DNA of 43,440 nucleotides from an uncultured Gammaproteobacteria bacterium. Its GTDB lineage: Bacteria; Pseudomonadota; Gammaproteobacteria; Arenicellales; JAANXG01. Position numbers and translations under genes: made by a program. Below are positions 245 through 42,719 of the stretch, in pieces. How positions within the stretch are numbered: the stretch's first letter is position 1; the number at the start of each line of letters is the position of its first letter. The notes beneath the pieces are model-generated. The model worked only from the letters and a program-made list of their open reading frames with translations. It searched no databases and was not told where the DNA came from. The stretch spans positions 1 through 43,440 of the forward strand of contig CAMYKK010000031.1 in assembly GCA_947258975.1 (NCBI GenBank), in the 5' to 3' direction.

Positions 245-285
245 CCGCTCCGACAAGCTATGTTGTGCTTGAAAAAGCCTATGTG

Positions 286-684
286 CTAGCGCTTGCTGTA
301 CTGCGGCCGTTTACGTGCTTTGTGGAGGCCCACCTTTTTGCGTTCGACTTCCCTCGCGTCACGAGTGACGAACCCGGCCTTGCGGAGCTTGCGGCGCAGG
401 GTCTCATCATAATCGAGCAGGGCGCGAGTAATGCCGTGGCGAATCGCTCCGGCTTGCCCACTGTTACCGCCACCGTCGACGTTTACTTCGATGTCGAATG
501 TGCTCTGCACGTCCGCAGTGACCAGTGGTTGCCGCGCGATCATGCGCGACGTCTCCCGTCCAAAATATTCATCGAGCGGAAGCCGGTTTACGATAATTTG
601 TCCACTGCCACGCGTGAGACGCACCCGTGCGGTCGACGACTTGCGCCGACCCGTACCGTGATAACTCTGTTCGGTGTTCGCCAC
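286..684 (-). CDS. rpsI: 30S ribosomal protein S9
   Basis: The 132-residue product is the normal bacterial S9 length. It begins [21 protein letters not shown] and ends with the basic tail RKRPQYSKR, which in S9 reaches the P-site tRNA in the small subunit. The GRRKSS(T/S)ARV motif near the N-terminus and the central [10 protein letters not shown](T/A)RAL segment are family hallmarks. It follows rplM by 17 bp, the universal bacterial pairing, so the two are almost certainly one transcript. Nothing about it looks unusual. Confidence 0.98.
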
Positions 685-701
685 TTAATACCTCTGCACG
701 A

Positions 702-1130
702 TTATAGCTCTAACGGCTTTGGTTGCTGCGCTTGGTGCCGATGTTCGGGCCCCGCATAGACATGTAACTTGGAAAACATCGCTCGGCCGAGAGGATTCTT
801 GGGCAGCATCCCCTTTATGGCTGTCTCGATGACAAATTCGGGGCGTCTCGCTATGACTTTCTCGAACGTTTCTGACTTGATGCCGCCCGGGTAACCGGTA
901 TGCCGGTGATAGATCTTGTCGCTCGCCTTGTTGCCGGTCACCCGGACCTTGCCTGCGTTGATCACCACGACATGGTCACCGGTATCCATGTGGGGAGTGT
1001 ATTCGGGCTTATGCTTGCCCCGCAGGCGACGGGCAACCTCGGTGGCGAGACGTCCCAACACCTTGTCGGTGGCGTCAACAACATACCAAGTGCGCCGTAT
1101 ATCTTTGGGTTTTGCAGAATAGGTCTTCAT
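702..1130 (-). CDS. rplM: 50S ribosomal protein L13
   Basis: Read from ATG at 1130 the product has 142 residues and begins [20 protein letters not shown], the same length and start as E. coli L13. An upstream in-frame ATG (1166) would add 12 residues not found in the family, so I reject it. Family motifs [31 protein letters not shown] and [21 protein letters not shown] are all present. L13 binds 23S rRNA and is an early 50S assembly protein; in E. coli it also represses its own operon through the leader. No Shine-Dalgarno sequence precedes this start, and the 5' region holds an unusual structured RNA (see the ncRNA entry), so control at the leader is plausible. Confidence 0.97.
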
Positions 1131-1170
1131 ACCGGTTGTTGCGCCCAATGGAGAGCGGGGGCGCATACTA

Positions 1171-1185
1171 CTAAAGGAGGATATA
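1171..1185 (-). other. anti-SD-like CCTCCTTT motif in the rplM 5' UTR
   Basis: The minus strand reads ATATCCTCCTTTAGTAG just 5' of the rplM start region. CCTCCTTT equals the anti-Shine-Dalgarno segment of 16S rRNA. The same ATCCTCCTTT string occurs about 100 nt further 5' inside the putative small RNA (1277-1287). On the plus strand it looks like a perfect SD (AAAGGAGG), but no plus-strand gene follows it. Its function is unknown. Confidence 0.5.
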
Positions 1186-1236
1186 AGTTACAAGACACCT
1201 GCGCGACATCGCGTTGTGCGGCAGGGGGATGCAGGC

Positions 1237-1268
1237 AAAAAAAAGGCGTGGCTTAGAGTAGCCACGCC
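1237..1268 (-). terminator. intrinsic terminator between the leader RNA and rplM
   Basis: On the minus strand GGCGTGGCT-ACTCTA-AGCCACGCC is followed by eight T residues (1237-1244). A 9-bp perfect stem with a 6-nt loop and U8 is a textbook Rho-independent terminator for minus-strand transcription entering from 1370. Confidence 0.9.
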
Positions 1269-1370
1269 CAAACCACCAAAGGAGGATGGAGGAGACTGTC
1301 ACGGGGTATCCGCGTCCGAGCCAATACCCCGGTGTTGGTTCGCCCTGAAGCGCTACCACAACTTCAGGAT
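1238..1370 (-). ncRNA. structured small RNA or attenuated rplM leader
   Basis: A near-consensus promoter would start transcription at about 1370. The ~132-nt RNA then contains four elements. Hairpin 1 is CCTGAAG (1362-1368) with CTTCAGG (1344-1350). Hairpin 2 is CGGGGTAT (1324-1331) with ATACCCCG (1302-1309). A C/U-rich stretch follows, containing CTCCTCC and ATCCTCCTTT (about 1277-1296). A perfect 9-bp terminator stem with U8 ends it (1237-1268). CCAA(C)ACC just 5' of hairpin 2 can pair with GGTTTGG just 5' of the terminator, closing a multi-branched domain that presents the CCUCC-rich strand as unpaired. No convincing protein is encoded. It could be an independent sRNA or the attenuated leader of rplM, which starts 107 nt past the U-tract. 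I do not recognise a known RNA family. Confidence 0.6.
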
Positions 1371-1376
1371 ATAATA

Positions 1377-1405
1377 ATTATCTAATATTACTTAGAATTT
1401 GTCAA
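1377..1405 (-). promoter_or_regulatory. strong sigma70 promoter upstream of the rplM leader RNA
   Basis: Minus strand TTGACA (1400-1405, 6/6 match) and GATAAT (1377-1382, 5/6 match) are separated by a 17-bp AT-rich spacer. This is the best promoter sequence I see in the window. Predicted initiation at about 1369-1371 falls on the first base of hairpin 1. Confidence 0.85.
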
Positions 1406-4879: not shown

Positions 4880-5959
4880 TTACAATTCCCTATACAGCCG
4901 CCCGGGGTTGAATATCCGCTGGGGATCGAAAGCATTTTTCAAATTCCGATGCAGGTTGAACAGTCCCGGGGGCAGCGGATGGAACACCTCGTCTGATCGA
5001 TCCCCGCCGCGAAACAGGGTTGCATGCCCGCCCACAGCCTCCACTTGTTTGCGAATCACAACCGCTTGCGCATCGCTTTTCAACCAACGTTGCCCTCCTC
5101 CCCATTCTATCAACCACTCACCGTCGAGAGGCAGCGGCGGCGCGGCCTGCGGCACCGAGATACGCCACTGAGATCGATCATCGGCAAAAAACGCATGGCG
5201 GTGCTCTTTGACGCTATGCCAAAACGCTGCGCCTTCATCGATTAATTCGCCATCCAGTCTGCCAATCGCCGCCTCCACTCCTTTTACGGAACCGGACACG
5301 CGAACGTAAAGCGTACCGTCATGATGACACGTGCCCGAAATCGGGATCGGCTGCCCGGCCCATTCGTTCATCTGCTCAATCGCTTGCGAGCAGAGCATTG
5401 AAATTCGAACCGTCTCCTCGCGGGCGGGAATGGGCAACACCTTCATCGACACCTCGACAATCACTCCCAAGGTGCCCAAGGCCCCAACCACCAGTCGCGA
5501 GATGTCGTAACCAGCGACGTTCTTCATGACTTGCCCGCCGAAGCGCAGCAACTCGCCGCGGCCGTTGATGATCCTGGTACCCAACACAAAATCCCGCACC
5601 GACCCGGCATAAGGTCGGCGGGGTCCGGACAATCCGCAAGCGATTGCACCACCCACGGTGGCACCCTCAGCAAAATGCGGCGGCTCAAATCCCAGCATCT
5701 GACCGTGCTCGGCCAGAGCTGATTCGAGTTCCGCGAGCGATGTCCCGGCGCGTGCGGTAACGACCAATTCCGATGGCTCATAGCTGACTATGCCGTTATG
5801 GCCGCGTAACTCCAGCGGTTGTCCTTCACTCGCGCGACCATAAAAGGCCTTGGTGTCACCTCCCCGGAGACGCAACGGCACGCCCTCGGTGATCGCCTGC
5901 TTGACCAACAGAGAGATCTCCTTGTCAACGTTGTTGCCGGCTTGCCCCACGGACTGCAC
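4880..5959 (-). CDS. glcE: glycolate oxidase FAD-binding subunit GlcE
   Basis: The 359-residue protein has an N-terminal FAD-binding PCMH-type domain: LRLRGGDTKAFYG, GIVSYEPSELVVTARAGTSLAELE, LGFEPPHFAEGATVGGAIACGLSGPRR and the block GSVRDFVLGTRIINGRGELLRFGGQVMKNVAGYD. It ends IFNPGRLYREL. These are diagnostic of GlcE, the shorter flavoprotein partner of GlcD. It starts with GTG four bases after the glcD stop, so translation is probably coupled. The complex oxidises glycolate to glyoxylate. Confidence 0.93.
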   Translation of the reverse strand: MQSVGQAGNNVDKEISLLVKQAITEGVPLRLRGGDTKAFYGRASEGQPLELRGHNGIVSYEPSELVVTARAGTSLAELESALAEHGQMLGFEPPHFAEGATVGGAIACGLSGPRRPYAGSVRDFVLGTRIINGRGELLRFGGQVMKNVAGYDISRLVVGALGTLGVIVEVSMKVLPIPAREETVRISMLCSQAIEQMNEWAGQPIPISGTCHHDGTLYVRVSGSVKGVEAAIGRLDGELIDEGAAFWHSVKEHRHAFFADDRSQWRISVPQAAPPLPLDGEWLIEWGGGQRWLKSDAQAVVIRKQVEAVGGHATLFRGGDRSDEVFHPLPPGLFNLHRNLKNAFDPQRIFNPGRLYREL

Positions 5960-5963
5960 CCGG

Positions 5964-7451
5964 CTAAAACCGCTCCAGTTCCGGGAACTTCAATTCACCT
6001 TTATGTACGTGCATGGCACCGAACTCCGCGCAGCGGCTCAGGGTGGGAACCGCCTTACCCGGATTGAGCAGGTTGTTGGGATCAAACGCCGCTTTCAACG
6101 CATGGAATTGGCTTAGCTCTGATTTGTCGAACTGCACACACATCTGGTTGATCTTTTCCACCCCAACACCATGCTCGCCGGTGATCGTGCCGCCAACTTC
6201 GACGCTCAACTCCAGAATCTTGCCGCCCAACTCCTCGGTGCGTTCAAGCTCACCGGGCTGATTGCCGTCGTAAAGAATCAAGGGATGCAGATTGCCGTCG
6301 CCGGCGTGAAACACGTTGGCGATTCGCAGGCCGTATTCTTGTCCCATTTCCGCAATGCGGGTCAAAACGTAACCGATTTTTTTTCTCGGTATGGTGCCGT
6401 CAATACAATAGTAATCCGGTGACAGCCGTCCCGCCGCGGGAAATGCCGCCTTGCGCCCGGACCAAAACAGCTGCCGCTGCTGTTCGTCTTGGGCGATACG
6501 CATATCGGTACAACCGCTTTCTTCCAATACCTTTTGGACCTGCTCGATGTCATCGCTAACCTCTTCGGGCGTTCCATCCAGTTCGCAAAACAGTATTGCC
6601 GCGGCATCGACATCATAACCGGCGTGCACAAAATCTTCCGTCGCGCGAGTCGCCAGGTTATCCATCATCTCCAAGCCGCCAGGGATGATCCCCGTTGCAA
6701 TGATGTTGCCCACCGCGTTACCCGCCTTCTCGATATCGTCAAAAGACGCCATGATCAGTTTGGCCGAGGCCGGCTTGGGCAACAGCCGGACGGTTATCTC
6801 AACGATGATACCCAGCATTCCTTCAGAACCGGTCATCAACGCCAACAAGTCATAGCCAGCGGCGTCCAGGCTATCCGCACCGACGGTGACTAAATCGCCC
6901 TCCACGGTGACCACCTGCAGCTTCAAGATGTTGTGAACCGTCAATCCGTACTTCAGGCAATGCAGGCCACCGGCATTTTCGGCCACATTGCCGCCGATGC
7001 TGCAGGCTATTTGCGACGAGGGGTCCGGCGCATAATAAAATCCCGACGCGGACACCGCTTCGGAAATGGCGAGATTGCGCACCCCTGGTTGCACCCGGGC
7101 GGTGCGATTGAGCAGATCGACGTCGAGAATCCGGTTGAACTTGGTGAGACTCAACAACACACCATTTTCCAGCGGCAGCGCGCCTCCCGACAGGCCCGTT
7201 CCAGCCCCACGCGCGACTACCGGGATCTGCTGACTCGCGCAATAACGCATCACTGTCTGCACTTGTTCAATTGTGTCCGGCAGTACGACAACCAGCGGTA
7301 GCTTGCGGTAGGCGCTGAGGCCATCGCACTCGTATGGACGAAGCTGCTCGGGATGATCGAGCACCGCCGTTTCGGGCAGCCATTGCCGCAGCATGCGCCC
7401 CAGGGTGCCTCGATCTACTCCGGCCGGTGCACGTTCCGCAGTCTGGGCCAT
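5964..7451 (-). CDS. glcD: glycolate oxidase subunit GlcD (FAD-linked)
   Basis: A 495-residue FAD-linked oxidase. The PCMH FAD domain shows VVARGAGTGLSGGALP, ARVQPGVRNLAISEA and DPSSQIACSIGGNVAENAGG; the C-terminal FAD-linked oxidase domain shows NVFHAGDGNLHPLILYD and GTITGEHGVGVEK, and it ends in NPGKAVP. It is the catalytic 2-hydroxyacid-oxidising subunit. ATG at 7451 is chosen because AGGAGA (7461-7466) lies nine bases upstream; the open frame extends 23 codons further without a family match. It is the first gene of glcD-E-F. No glcC regulator or glcG is present in the window, and the region upstream carries a dispersed repeat. Confidence 0.95.
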   Translation of the reverse strand: MAQTAERAPAGVDRGTLGRMLRQWLPETAVLDHPEQLRPYECDGLSAYRKLPLVVVLPDTIEQVQTVMRYCASQQIPVVARGAGTGLSGGALPLENGVLLSLTKFNRILDVDLLNRTARVQPGVRNLAISEAVSASGFYYAPDPSSQIACSIGGNVAENAGGLHCLKYGLTVHNILKLQVVTVEGDLVTVGADSLDAAGYDLLALMTGSEGMLGIIVEITVRLLPKPASAKLIMASFDDIEKAGNAVGNIIATGIIPGGLEMMDNLATRATEDFVHAGYDVDAAAILFCELDGTPEEVSDDIEQVQKVLEESGCTDMRIAQDEQQRQLFWSGRKAAFPAAGRLSPDYYCIDGTIPRKKIGYVLTRIAEMGQEYGLRIANVFHAGDGNLHPLILYDGNQPGELERTEELGGKILELSVEVGGTITGEHGVGVEKINQMCVQFDKSELSQFHALKAAFDPNNLLNPGKAVPTLSRCAEFGAMHVHKGELKFPELERF

Positions 7452-14051: not shown

Positions 14052-15293
14052 TTACCGCTCGCTCCATTTGGGGCGCGGATGAATGAGCTTGTCCGACGCC
14101 CACTTGGTTGGTGCGACGACCTTGTACTGGCCACTCTGGATCTGGCGCAGCACCATCGGCTTGGCAACGTTCTTACCGGTCTCATCAAATTTGATGTTGC
14201 CGTAGAAGGTCTGCATGTCAGTAGCTGCCAGTGCGTCGCGCAACTTGCCGGTATCGAAGGAATTCGCGCGCTGGAGGGCATCTACCCAAACGAGCACCGA
14301 GGCGGTGGATTCGGCGGCCTGGTACGGTGGCGTATAGCCGTATTCCTTCTCAAACAGCTTGGCGTAATCGGGCGCCGCGCCGAAGTATTTGTCCTGATAC
14401 GTCATGGTCTCCGCCCACTGGGTGGCGCACAAGGTGTAGTCGGCGCCGGGGCCGAACTTGCCCACCACGTCCGCTGCTTCGCAGTGGGTGATGGCAAACA
14501 TCGGCACGTCGACCTTCTGCTCCATCATTTGACGCACCGCGGTGGCCGCACCCTTGGAATGACCTGAGACCACCAGGACGTCCGGTTTCAACGCCCGGAC
14601 CTTGGTCAAGGTGACCGTCATGTCGTTCAGCTCCTTGGGCAGCTTGTCGTCGATGACAACGTTCATGCTGTGTGTCTGCGCATCGTCCAACACGCCGGCG
14701 CGGATGTCCTGGGAGAACGGATCGTTCTCCATCGCCAGCGCCAACTTGATGCTGGACGGGTCTTTGCCCGCCGCCAACGCCTGCTGGGCGGCCAGATTGA
14801 TGGCTTCGGCCAGGTACTGCTCCGACGTCGACAGCACCGCAAACAGGTATTTGTAACCCTTGTTGAACAATGACCGGGATGCGCCGTTGCCCTCGACCAT
14901 GGGAATCTTATACTTCTCGGTCACCGGCGCCATCGCCTTGGTGAGGCCCGAGCTGTACGGGCCCAACATGTATTGGACGCCATCTTGCTTGATCAGGCGC
15001 TCGGCCAGCTGGGCCCCGCGCGCGGGCGTGGACTCGTCGTCATAGTAAATTACCTTGAGCTTGTAGTTTTTGCCATCGACATTTATGCCGCCCATTTCGT
15101 TGACTTTCTTGACGGCCAGCTCATAGCCGTTCTTGGTGTGCTTGCCGTTGGTCTTATATTTGCCCGTAAACGACAGGGCGGCGCCGAGAATAATCGTATC
15201 GCCCTCGACTTTTGCGTGCGCGGCGCCGGCAAAAGACATCACCAGCGCGACCGCGGTAAGCGGGGCGAAGACAGGTTTGAGGTATCGAAACAT
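14052..15293 (-). CDS. livK-like: HAAT-type ABC transporter periplasmic substrate-binding protein
   Basis: The 413-residue product begins with a Sec signal peptide (hydrophobic stretch LTAVALVMSFAGAAHA, cleavage after AHA near residue 27). The mature part starts with IILGAALSFTGKYKTNGKHTKNGYELAVKKVNEMGGI, the Peripla_BP_6 (LivJ/K-like) signature, and contains DDESTPARGAQLAERLI and MLGPYSSGLTKAMAPV. Substrates of this family include branched-chain amino acids, amides, urea and aromatic acids; I cannot choose. AGGAGGA lies five bases before the ATG. First gene of the operon, so it is likely to be the most abundant product. Confidence 0.92.
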   Translation of the reverse strand: MFRYLKPVFAPLTAVALVMSFAGAAHAKVEGDTIILGAALSFTGKYKTNGKHTKNGYELAVKKVNEMGGINVDGKNYKLKVIYYDDESTPARGAQLAERLIKQDGVQYMLGPYSSGLTKAMAPVTEKYKIPMVEGNGASRSLFNKGYKYLFAVLSTSEQYLAEAINLAAQQALAAGKDPSSIKLALAMENDPFSQDIRAGVLDDAQTHSMNVVIDDKLPKELNDMTVTLTKVRALKPDVLVVSGHSKGAATAVRQMMEQKVDVPMFAITHCEAADVVGKFGPGADYTLCATQWAETMTYQDKYFGAAPDYAKLFEKEYGYTPPYQAAESTASVLVWVDALQRANSFDTGKLRDALAATDMQTFYGNIKFDETGKNVAKPMVLRQIQSGQYKVVAPTKWASDKLIHPRPKWSER

Positions 15294-27309: not shown

Positions 27310-28449
27310 CTAAGCGATCTCGCCAGGGAAGTAGTGCTGGAAGGCGAGCTTGTAATCCGCCGAGTTCATGAGATCGTAAAACGCCACCCGGTGCGACCAT
27401 TCCTTTTGGCTCTTCACCACCTTGGCGAAGAACGGATCCGTTTCGAGTTTCTTCAGAACCGTATCCCAAGAACCGAGCTGGGCCTTCATGATCGACTGGT
27501 CGGTACGATACACATTGACGCCGTGTTTTTTCATCAGGTCCTGCAGGTCGCGAGAATAATTATCCAACGCGAAACCGTAGTTCGCGGTGTTGGTGGCCTC
27601 CGCACCGTACTCGAGGATCGCCTGTTGCTCCTTGGCCAGGCCGTTGAACTTGTCCTTATTGAAGATGATCTCGAAGAACTCCGCCGCCTGGTGATAGCTA
27701 CCCATGTGATAGTGCTTGGACACGTCCTGGGCGCCGAACTGCATGTCGGAAGTCGGGTTGTTGAATTCGAAGGCCTCAATGACACCGCGCTCCAGTGCCG
27801 GGACGATCTCGCCGCCCGGAAGCTGGGTCACCTTGAGCCCCATGCCCTGCATGATGTCGGTGGCCAATCCCACGGTGCGGTACTTCAGGCCCTGCATGTC
27901 GGCGGCACTCTTGACGTGCTTCTTGAACCAGCCCAGGGGTTGGGTCGGCATCGGCATGGCAAAAAAGCCCACCAGATTCAACTTGAGAATATCCTGGACT
28001 AGTTCTTCATACAGTTGCTTACCGCCACCGTAGTGGATCCAGGCCAGGATCTGCGACGCATTGGCGCCGAATACCGGACCGGTGCCGAACAGCGAAGCGG
28101 CCTTGTTCTTGCCGTACCAGTAGGCGGTCACGGTGTGCGCGCCATCGAGCACGCCCTTGTTCACTGCATCCTGTACCTGAAACGCCTTGACCACTGCGCC
28201 CGCCGGTAACACGTCGACCTTCAAGCGGCCGCCGGACATTGCCTCGACGCGTTCCGCATACTGCCGGAACATGTCCTGGAAGATCGCCTTGGCGCCCCAG
28301 GAACTCTGCATCTTCAGGGTTTTCGTTTGCGCACGCGACACCATGGGGAATCCCAAGGTCGCCGCACCCGCGGTTGCCGCCCCCGCGGTCTTAAGAAACT
28401 TGCGGCGACCGGACGCAGTCTTCGCGCCCTTCTCGATCTTAGATTGCAT
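27310..28449 (-). CDS. dctP: TRAP transporter substrate-binding protein, Tat-exported (FcbT1/TakP type)
   Basis: The start is ATG at 28449 with AGGAGGAG just upstream. The 379-residue precursor begins MQSKIEKGAKTASGRRKFLKTAG, a twin-arginine signal (RRKFLK) followed by a weakly hydrophobic stretch and cleavage around VSRAQ. The mature protein contains DVLPAGAVVKAFQVQDAVNKGVLDGAHT, KYRTVGLATDIMQGMGLKVTQLPGGEIVPALERGVIEAFEFNNPTSD, matching the COG4663 branch that binds 2-oxoacids, chlorobenzoate or mannitol. Tat export suggests it folds with ligand or metal inside the cell, as known for TakP-like members. Coupling to an amidase is unusual. Confidence 0.92.
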   Translation of the reverse strand: MQSKIEKGAKTASGRRKFLKTAGAATAGAATLGFPMVSRAQTKTLKMQSSWGAKAIFQDMFRQYAERVEAMSGGRLKVDVLPAGAVVKAFQVQDAVNKGVLDGAHTVTAYWYGKNKAASLFGTGPVFGANASQILAWIHYGGGKQLYEELVQDILKLNLVGFFAMPMPTQPLGWFKKHVKSAADMQGLKYRTVGLATDIMQGMGLKVTQLPGGEIVPALERGVIEAFEFNNPTSDMQFGAQDVSKHYHMGSYHQAAEFFEIIFNKDKFNGLAKEQQAILEYGAEATNTANYGFALDNYSRDLQDLMKKHGVNVYRTDQSIMKAQLGSWDTVLKKLETDPFFAKVVKSQKEWSHRVAFYDLMNSADYKLAFQHYFPGEIA

Positions 28450-41651: not shown

Positions 41652-42719
41652 CTACTTGGGAAGCGTTCTGGGAAGAAACGCGTAGGACTGCCACAAGGCG
41701 TAACCCTTACGAAATTCCTGCATGTCGTCCCACACCTTTTTAAAATACGCGTCCTTGGCGGCCATATCGTTTGCGACACCTTCCCAAGTCTTCTTGTACA
41801 GCGCCAACATGTCGCCGGACCAGTATTTGAGCTGGACGCCGTTTTTCTCCACGTTTTCCTTCATTACCGAAAATTGGAGGGCCTCGCCCTCAGCCAGCGA
41901 GTTCGCTGTGGCGGCCATGGTGATCATTTCTATCACCATCCTCTGATGATCGCTCAGTCCGTTCCACACGTCTTTGTTGATCAACAACTCGAACACCGTC
42001 GCCTGCTGATGCCAACCCGGAAAATAGTTGTTCTTCACCAGCTTGTGAAACCCGAGAAGCTTGTCGATGGCCGGCATCGAAAACTCCGTCGCGTCGATGG
42101 CCTTTTTCTCCAACGCCGGAAAGATCTCTCCACCCGGGAGCAGACTCGTCGACACCCCGAGCTTTTGCATCACTTGCCCGCCTAATCCAAAAAATCGCAT
42201 CTTCAGCCCTTGGAGATCATCGGCACTGTTGATGTCCTTGCCAAACCAACCGGAGGTCTCCGGGGCAATGATGCCGCATACCAGCACCTTGACGTTGTAG
42301 CCGGCCTGATCGTACATCTCCTGATACAGTTTCATACCGTTGCCGTACCACAGCCACGCCAGATACTCCCCGGCTTCCGGTCCGAACGGCACTGCGGAAA
42401 AAAGTGGCGACGCGGGAATCTTGCCGGACCAATAACCCGCCGTGGTGTATCCGGAGTTGACCTTGCCCGACGACACCGCGTCCAGAATCTCGAACGGCGC
42501 GACCAGTTTCTTGGGCTCGTAGACCTTCATCTTGACACTGCCTGCACTCAGGGTGTCGACGCGGTCACCTACCCACTTGATGGTAGTGCCCAGACCTGGC
42601 AGCTTGGTCGCGAAAGCAATCGGGGTCTTGAGCAGTACGGGCTTGTCCGCCGCAAATGCTGGAATGGATGCCGCCCCGAGGCTTATTGCAGCCACGATGG
42701 CGATAAGGGGCTTTCTCAT
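41652..42719 (-). CDS. dctP: TRAP transporter substrate-binding protein DctP
   Basis: The 355-residue precursor has a Sec signal (IAIVAAISLGAASIPAFA, cleaved after AFA). The mature part shows VKMKVYEPKKLVAPFEILDAVSSGKVNSGYTTAGYWSGKIPASPLF, DLQGLKMRFFGLGGQVMQKLGVSTSLLPGGEIFPALEKKAIDATEFSMPAIDK; the Arg in KMRFFG is the family carboxylate-binding residue. GGAGG stands nine bases before ATG. Given lutABC downstream, lactate is a reasonable ligand, not proven. Confidence 0.93.
   Translation of the reverse strand: MRKPLIAIVAAISLGAASIPAFAADKPVLLKTPIAFATKLPGLGTTIKWVGDRVDTLSAGSVKMKVYEPKKLVAPFEILDAVSSGKVNSGYTTAGYWSGKIPASPLFSAVPFGPEAGEYLAWLWYGNGMKLYQEMYDQAGYNVKVLVCGIIAPETSGWFGKDINSADDLQGLKMRFFGLGGQVMQKLGVSTSLLPGGEIFPALEKKAIDATEFSMPAIDKLLGFHKLVKNNYFPGWHQQATVFELLINKDVWNGLSDHQRMVIEMITMAATANSLAEGEALQFSVMKENVEKNGVQLKYWSGDMLALYKKTWEGVANDMAAKDAYFKKVWDDMQEFRKGYALWQSYAFLPRTLPK

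Follow-up and report, generated by a model that had tools for sequence, protein, structure and literature searches.

A predicted small RNA with an anti-Shine-Dalgarno core upstream of rplM in Gammaproteobacteria, probably related to the S17 and double-hairpin RNAs

The window analysed here, a stretch of 43,440 nucleotides from an uncultured gammaproteobacterium of the order Arenicellales, contains between a 2Fe-2S ferredoxin gene and the ribosomal protein gene rplM a short segment with a promoter, a terminator and a C/U-rich core. Is this segment a leader through which rplM is controlled, or the gene of a small RNA (sRNA) in its own right, and, if the latter, to which family does the RNA belong and which mRNAs would it act on? 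The reading argued for below, at a probability of about 0.8, is that of a stand-alone trans-acting sRNA, homologous to the S17/double-hairpin family, which would block mRNAs at their ribosome-binding sites, probably together with Hfq.

The transcription unit and its relation to rplM

The features of the locus are listed here, each with the evidence on which it rests.

1377..1405, minus strand: sigma-70 type promoter of the sRNA, TTGACA-17-GATAAT (sequence signals)
1303..1370, minus strand: 5′ domain of the sRNA, two hairpins (predicted folds; varies among genomes)
1288..1302, minus strand: single strand with Site 1 (CUCCUCC, 1294-1288), where the conserved 3′ module begins (alignment A3)
1273..1289, minus strand: small hairpin CCAUC[CUCCUUU]GGUGG, with the anti-Shine-Dalgarno Site 2 in its loop (84 sequences)
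1237..1269, minus strand: intrinsic terminator, stem GGCGUGGCU/AGCCACGCC and T run (covariation, 84 sequences)
1165..1193, minus strand: probable own promoter of rplM, TTGTAA-17-TAGTAT (12 of 13 family genomes)
705..1130, minus strand: rplM (ribosomal protein L13), start without a Shine-Dalgarno (SD) sequence (tblastn, ORFs)
684-286, minus strand: rpsI, after rplM (tblastn, ORFs)

The sRNA promoter, with TTGACA (1405-1400) and GATAAT (1382-1377) 17 bp apart, has 11 of 12 matches, which no other promoter-like site of the window reaches and for which a first-order Markov control (40 simulations) gives 0.2 sites per window; it had been called the strongest there, and this is confirmed. The terminator consists of a perfect 9-bp stem followed by 8 T, the T run reaching 1237, and no other perfect stem of at least 8 pairs stands directly before six or more T in the window. 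From these signals an RNA of about 134 nt is predicted (~1370-1237, minus strand), in agreement with the ~132 nt first proposed, and the T run ends 106 nt before the rplM ATG, where 107 nt had been given. Both CTCCTCC and ATCCTCCTTT are present in the C/U-rich segment, as described. By blastn, 29 of 60 genomes match at E ≤ 1e-5, the window's own included, and this conservation indicates that the signals are more than chance. The claim that no protein is encoded stands in part: a 62-codon open frame with a GTG start (1359-1171, minus strand) overlaps the sRNA, but many indels in the family alignment (A4) argue against a coding role.

The promoter element ATATTAGATAATTATTATATCC (1388-1367, minus strand) spans the -10 hexamer and is identical in 11 of 13 family genomes. 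Its conservation exceeds the needs of a promoter, in some relatives it shares bases with a palindrome, TCTAATATTAGA, and it may be the site of some regulator; a reading as a Fur box or palindrome was considered, by eye only, and was not retained. Upstream, at 1433-1424 (minus strand), lies a second -10-like sequence, CGTCTATAAT (or GTCTATAAT, CGTCTATACT), which is kept in close relatives (L010-L015) and possibly forms a tandem promoter with that of the sRNA.

An alternative already raised in the original prediction is that the region is a terminator-controlled attenuator of rplM-rpsI, with L13 or translation capacity setting the readthrough. It draws on the position of the sRNA, which was surveyed in 80 loci, namely 70 of the 135 genomes of the class that match the covariance model described below and 10 divergent loci. 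The 70 are nearly the best-scoring, seven genomes of like score (G348, G422, G242, G330, G102, G393 and G417) having been left out. In 53 of the 80 loci rplM follows on the same strand within 1.2 kb, and among exact-core matches with more than 700 bases of room the sRNA stands upstream of rplM in 49 of 108. Several observations count against attenuation. No rplM is found downstream in 27 of the 80 loci (three of which had fewer than 600 bases of room), nor on contig L146, which carries the sRNA three times in succession. Past the terminator, 12 of 13 family genomes have a second promoter sequence, in which TAGTAT is preceded at 17 bp by a hexamer of the TTG or TTT type, or in one genome by TCGACA; the scan covered the 17-bp spacing only and chose another site in the thirteenth genome (L019). 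A transcript shared with the sRNA, with no separate promoter for rplM, is thus not what these sequence signals suggest. The nine rplM start regions printed have no SD with which the sRNA could pair, no terminator-switching element was seen, and no L13 leader family is among the Rfam matches listed. Since rplM has a probable promoter of its own after the terminator and lacks an SD, control of rplM through this region is very unlikely, and the stand-alone sRNA is preferred. A repeat just before rplM, ATCCTCCTTTAGT, was examined as a second copy of the core and rejected: it falls between the two hexamers of the rplM promoter, and the relatives printed have a different sequence there.

Fold, conservation and family assignment

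The 129-nt part from 1365 to 1237 folds at -53.5 kcal/mol (z -3.2), which 1 of 200 shuffled sequences matched. The two clean hairpins claimed at the outset are present in the predicted folds of the 5′ domain, CCUGAAG..CUUCAGG at about 1369-1343 and GGGGUAU..AUACCCC at about 1330-1303. The multi-branched fold is likewise among the predicted folds, but it is just one of several. The anti-SD strand is displayed, as foreseen, in the single strand (Site 1) and in the loop of the small hairpin (Site 2). In 12 of 13 family sequences (L010-L022; GGTA in L011) the second hairpin of the 5′ domain (1330-1303, minus strand) carries GGA in its apical loop, and from its sequence this loop looks like a CsrA/RsmA site.

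Compensatory changes among homologues had been named as decisive for the fold, and they occur in the terminator and the 5′ hairpins but not in the core hairpin. From 102 segments collected, an alignment of 84 (A3) was obtained by leaving out mainly near-identical ones and tandem copies. In A3, 8 of the 8 terminator pairs show double-sided changes, with 85 double-sided cells versus 16.6 in whole-structure shuffles, and 96.4% of cells are paired. Seven close sequences keep the 5′ hairpins, two pairs being changed on both sides; outside the genus the sequence of this domain diverges. In the small hairpin CCAUC/GGUGG, 97.6-100% of cells are paired in the 84 sequences, no pair has a double-sided change, and the U.G pair has become C-G in three sequences and U-A in three. 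An alternative register of this hairpin fits slightly worse, or about equally well, and CUCCUU is in the loop in both registers. Because the core hardly varies, covariation cannot settle the structure of the small hairpin. Three sequences (L055, L061 and L268) carry the variant CCAUC[CUCCUAGU]GGUGG, in which the loop is longer and the stem is kept, and this favours the CCAUC/GGUGG register. Twenty-five successive core bases, CTCCTCCATCCTCCTTTGGTGGTTT, are invariant in the 20 best blastn matches of the order, loop and single strand included, and most core bases are conserved at 90% or more in the 84 diverse sequences.

At curated thresholds, Rfam finds only a tRNA in the window. At relaxed thresholds the best match of the sRNA is RF02278, 'Betaproteobacteria toxic small RNA' (44.5 bits, E 4.7e-8), which covers the last ~65 nt, comprising UCUCCUCC, the hairpin with its CU-rich loop and the terminator. 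The next match by score, NmsRb (RF02877), has 24.9 bits, far under its cut-off of 52. The window RNA has the layout of the RF02278 family, that is UCUCCUCCA, a CCA..UGG stem with a CU-rich loop and an intrinsic terminator, in the same order. It differs in having a shorter hairpin stem, another terminator, a two-hairpin 5′ domain and one copy in its genome, not several. The curated cut-off of RF02278 is 50 bits; by this cut-off the window RNA is outside the family, and it is therefore filed here as an RNA that works alike and probably has the same ancestor.

Published members allow a closer comparison. Four double-hairpin RNAs of Burkholderia cenocepacia (ncS03, ncS05, ncS27 and ncS62/bdhR1) are described as bearing RF02278, and their CU-rich parts, those of ncS27 included, are predicted to cover ribosome-binding sites (PMC5688073, PMC4603805). 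S17 of Bordetella pertussis adjoins coq7, and its 190-nt form, S17L, is reported to be cut by RNase E to 67 nt; it is described as Hfq-dependent, with direct repression of one tested gene in a reporter assay and candidate targets reached through Site 1, at the 5′ end, and Site 2, in the first loop (PMC11722255). In S17, 27 nt are reported as 100% conserved in various Betaproteobacteria, with a 2-nt mismatch there to bdhR1 (PMC11722255). Going by its published description, S17 resembles the window RNA in its own promoter, its long form, its Rho-independent terminator and its conserved 3′ part, with Site 1 at the 5′ end of that part and Site 2 in a loop; coq7 is a neighbour in some relatives of the window as well. 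The two differ in length, 190 versus about 134 nt, and in that the window RNA has the ferredoxin gene and rplM on its two sides. NmsRA/NmsRB of Neisseria (RcoF, RF02877) are described as having a UC-rich single strand between stem-loops and a UC-rich loop, partly complementary to the region around the SD, and as acting at ribosome-binding sites on fusions (PMC5362039); unlike the window RNA, they form a tandem pair and have other hairpins.

With a match to RF02278 at E 4.7e-8, albeit under the cut-off, and a layout shared with the published S17 and double-hairpin RNAs, the statement that no described family fits is not supported. The CcsR or cuckoo-type sRNAs of Alphaproteobacteria display CCUCC in loops, so that they have the anti-SD principle in common with the window RNA. 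No such family is among the 13 Rfam matches listed; of the likeness to the CcsR group first suggested, only that in mode of working stands.

CU-rich anti-SD loops occur in several unrelated sRNAs, and an independent gammaproteobacterial sRNA could have converged on the anti-SD sequence and so have acquired its likeness to RF02278. The differences in the sequence of the 5′ domain and of the terminator would fit such an origin, as would the orientation of coq7, which is not the same in gammaproteobacterial and Rfam-type loci. Against it stand two sequences, L127 (titled Gallionellaceae) and L189, which have the exact 22-nt core of the window and also score above the RF02278 cut-off, at 51.8 and 50.5 bits, respectively; they thus bridge the window group and the Rfam group. 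L189 resembles L127 in its RNA and its upstream neighbour. Moreover, single-stranded site, hairpin and terminator come in the same order in both groups, and intermediates such as L224 (65.6 bits) exist. The common core, the layout and the intermediates speak for shared descent over convergence, which we regard as very unlikely; the shared neighbourhood is weaker support. Homology and architecture are thus matters of observation, and the window RNA is a relative of S17 and the double-hairpin RNAs, probably from the same ancestor. Adjoining the sRNA of L127 there is a sub-threshold match to a group II intron (255-326, plus strand; 37.6 bits, cut-off 40).

Distribution and gene neighbourhood

Outside the window's family, the likeness is mostly confined to the 3′ module. 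The covariance search over relatives that had been proposed was run with a model, R1, built from the 20 best blastn matches and roughly calibrated. At E ≤ 0.001, R1 matches 83 of the 109 genomes searched in the order and 135 of the 369 in the class, the window's genome included, and 103 of the 135 class matches have E ≤ 1e-8 at this rough calibration. Of these 369 genomes, the RF02278 model matches 103 at E ≤ 0.001, and in 2 it passes its cut-off. A search at phylum level gave matches in 10 of 299 genomes, namely the window's own and nine others from the class; for 269 of the genomes without a match no lineage was listed, so that this search says nothing on absence outside the class. The exact 22-nt core is found in at least 118 stretches of named genome contigs, and the 80 titles listed include Thiocapsa, Thioalkalivibrio, Sedimenticola, Thiothrix, Arenicella, Thiodiazotropha and Gallionellaceae. 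In the Thiotrichaceae contig L146, three copies of the sRNA stand in tandem (5782-6024), and genome G360 has six matches in the class search with R1. These copies, with which genome G341 is grouped, are sibling sRNAs, as in Neisseria and Burkholderia. An origin in a phage or plasmid was considered and dismissed: there was no match in phage or plasmid records, and the exact core is absent from IMG/VR.

Besides rplM, other genes recur around the sRNA. Among the 80 loci surveyed, coq7 is near in 30 and a ferredoxin or glcF gene is present in 42, while 14 have none of rplM, coq7, ferredoxin and glcF. In Rfam-type loci (L211, which equals L229, and L212, L226, L227 and L228) coq7 precedes the sRNA by 583-749 nt on its own strand, whereas in the gammaproteobacterial loci for which the strand of coq7 is printed it lies upstream on the opposite strand; the two groups therefore share a neighbourhood but not an orientation. 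No coq7 was found in the window's 2.8-kb locus (L037); elsewhere in the order it does occur near the sRNA, for example in L025 and L027. In Thiodiazotropha, tgt-like and queA-like genes, so labelled by inspection, adjoin the sRNA. In one locus (L024, genome G019) the sRNA follows a ferredoxin gene and has an unrelated membrane protein gene downstream instead of rplM.

This kind of sRNA is known and has been studied mainly in Burkholderia and Bordetella. What looks new is its commonness in other Gammaproteobacteria, where Rfam rarely calls it (2/369 versus 135/369). One gammaproteobacterial report was found, PMC8780938, which describes a strain of Aeromonas salmonicida with an annotated Betaproteobacteria toxic small RNA; the word Gammaproteobacteria is absent from the main text of the S17 study (PMC11722255). 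In open-licence titles and abstracts, a body of text that mostly excludes subscription papers and bioRxiv-only preprints, no report of a class-wide spread or of a link to rplM was found.

Candidate targets and proposed mode of action

Site 1 and Site 2 are the complements of GGAGGAGA and AAAGGAG(GAU), and both can pair with purine-rich ribosome-binding sites, GGAGGA and AAAGGAGG. The window contains three genes for periplasmic solute-binding proteins (SBPs), at 14052-15293, 27310-28449 and 41775-42566, all on the minus strand, one of the branched-chain amino acid type and two of the TRAP DctP type. Among SD-led starts of the window's ORFs, the two best sRNA pairings are at the branched-chain amino acid SBP gene and a TRAP SBP gene, and the third SBP gene (DctP) ranks fifth. 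In the whole genome, which has 16 labelled SBP genes, the 11 that are SD-led by the rule used here show stronger pairing than 57 other genes with SD-led starts (median -20.2 versus -14.7 kcal/mol, p 1e-4). Because the three window genes had prompted the idea, the comparison was repeated without them, and the difference remained (8 versus 57 genes, median -19.1 versus -14.7 kcal/mol, p 0.0023). None of 200 shuffled sites gave as large a gap, most shuffles losing the SD match. Pairing with the 16S tail is also better for SBP genes (p 0.026), so that the target signal is partly plain SD strength; the excess of sRNA pairing over 16S-tail pairing has p 0.03 with the window genes left out. Within the genome GGAGGA is not clearly preferred (4/6 versus 10/17 after GGAGG, window genes left out). 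Long antisense targets were sought as well, and none went beyond the backwards control: with up to 3 mismatches in 17 nt there are 6 genome sites, one of them the sRNA's own gene, versus 7 in that control.

A second comparison used dctP genes in 20 other genomes of the order, 11 with the sRNA (93 matches) and 9 without (89), from which 61 and 49 matches were taken, with an ORF in 60/61 and 49/49, respectively. For want of an SD-led start, 16 of 60 genes were dropped in genomes with the sRNA and 3 of 49 in those without. The start regions of the 44 distinct genes from genomes with the sRNA pair more strongly than those of the 45 from genomes without it (p 0.0011 on genome medians, and p 0.012 for the excess over 16S pairing), and other genes (23 versus 18) show no difference in this direction. 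The gap is not clearly better than that of shuffled sites, 30 of 200 of which gave one as large, and it is largely base composition, as the regions differ in G+C (0.44 versus 0.34). An A follows GGAGG in 16 of 18 dctP starts with the sRNA and in 5 of 14 without (Fisher p 0.0025, the orthologues not being independent). Together with the 32 transporter-related genes or operons described among the S17 candidates (PMC11722255), these data suggest transporter genes, above all those for SBPs, as the likeliest targets.

The pairing, the part of Hfq, the processing and the targets are proposed here from the homologues and from this modest target signal. Transcription would start at ~1370 and stop at 1237, giving an RNA with a variable two-hairpin 5′ domain followed by a near-invariant 3′ module of Site 1, Site 2 hairpin and terminator. 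By analogy with S17, RNase E perhaps cuts off the 5′ domain, possibly in the region 1288..1302. Site 1 and Site 2 would then pair with purine-rich ribosome-binding sites, and the sRNA, probably with Hfq, for which the window's genome has a gene, would block ribosome binding on a set of mRNAs, most likely those of transporter genes and foremost of SBPs.

An RNA with such a core could instead mimic the 3′ end of 16S rRNA and, as a general decoy competing for SD sequences, lower translation globally, with little choice of target. Its AUCCUCCUUU resembles the 16S tail, and the target signal, as noted, is in part plain SD strength. Toxicity points the same way: RF02278 RNAs carried into E. coli by a cloning vector are described as toxic there (PMC4603805), and overexpression of ncS27 as slowing growth (PMC5688073). 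By contrast, overexpressed S17 is reported to leave the exponential growth of E. coli unimpaired (PMC11722255), defined target sets are described for S17 (PMC11722255) and NmsR (PMC5362039), and the conserved core is longer than a match to the SD requires. We consider a general decoy unlikely and retain an sRNA that acts on selected mRNAs.

A further, tentative step is to suppose that the sRNA and its place by coq7 and rplM predate the split of Beta- and Gammaproteobacteria, and that it is a class-wide, ancestral anti-SD regulator restraining nutrient uptake. This is doubtful, and it is put at lower odds because the orientation of coq7 differs between the two groups. If it were true, the restrained proteins would be the periplasmic TRAP and ABC solute-binding proteins, whose ribosome-binding sites would have been drawn to GGAGGA; the RNA would be a core sRNA of many sulfur-oxidising and environmental Gammaproteobacteria, and S17, bdhR and NmsR would be late derivatives. 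The RF02278 model of Rfam merits rebuilding. If the proposed sRNA is confirmed, it would be a trans-acting sRNA with very wide conservation beyond the enteric model organisms, and in non-pathogenic hosts such as Thiocapsa roseopersicina, Thioalkalivibrio and Thiothrix it could be studied how targets are chosen with a near-universal anti-Shine-Dalgarno seed.
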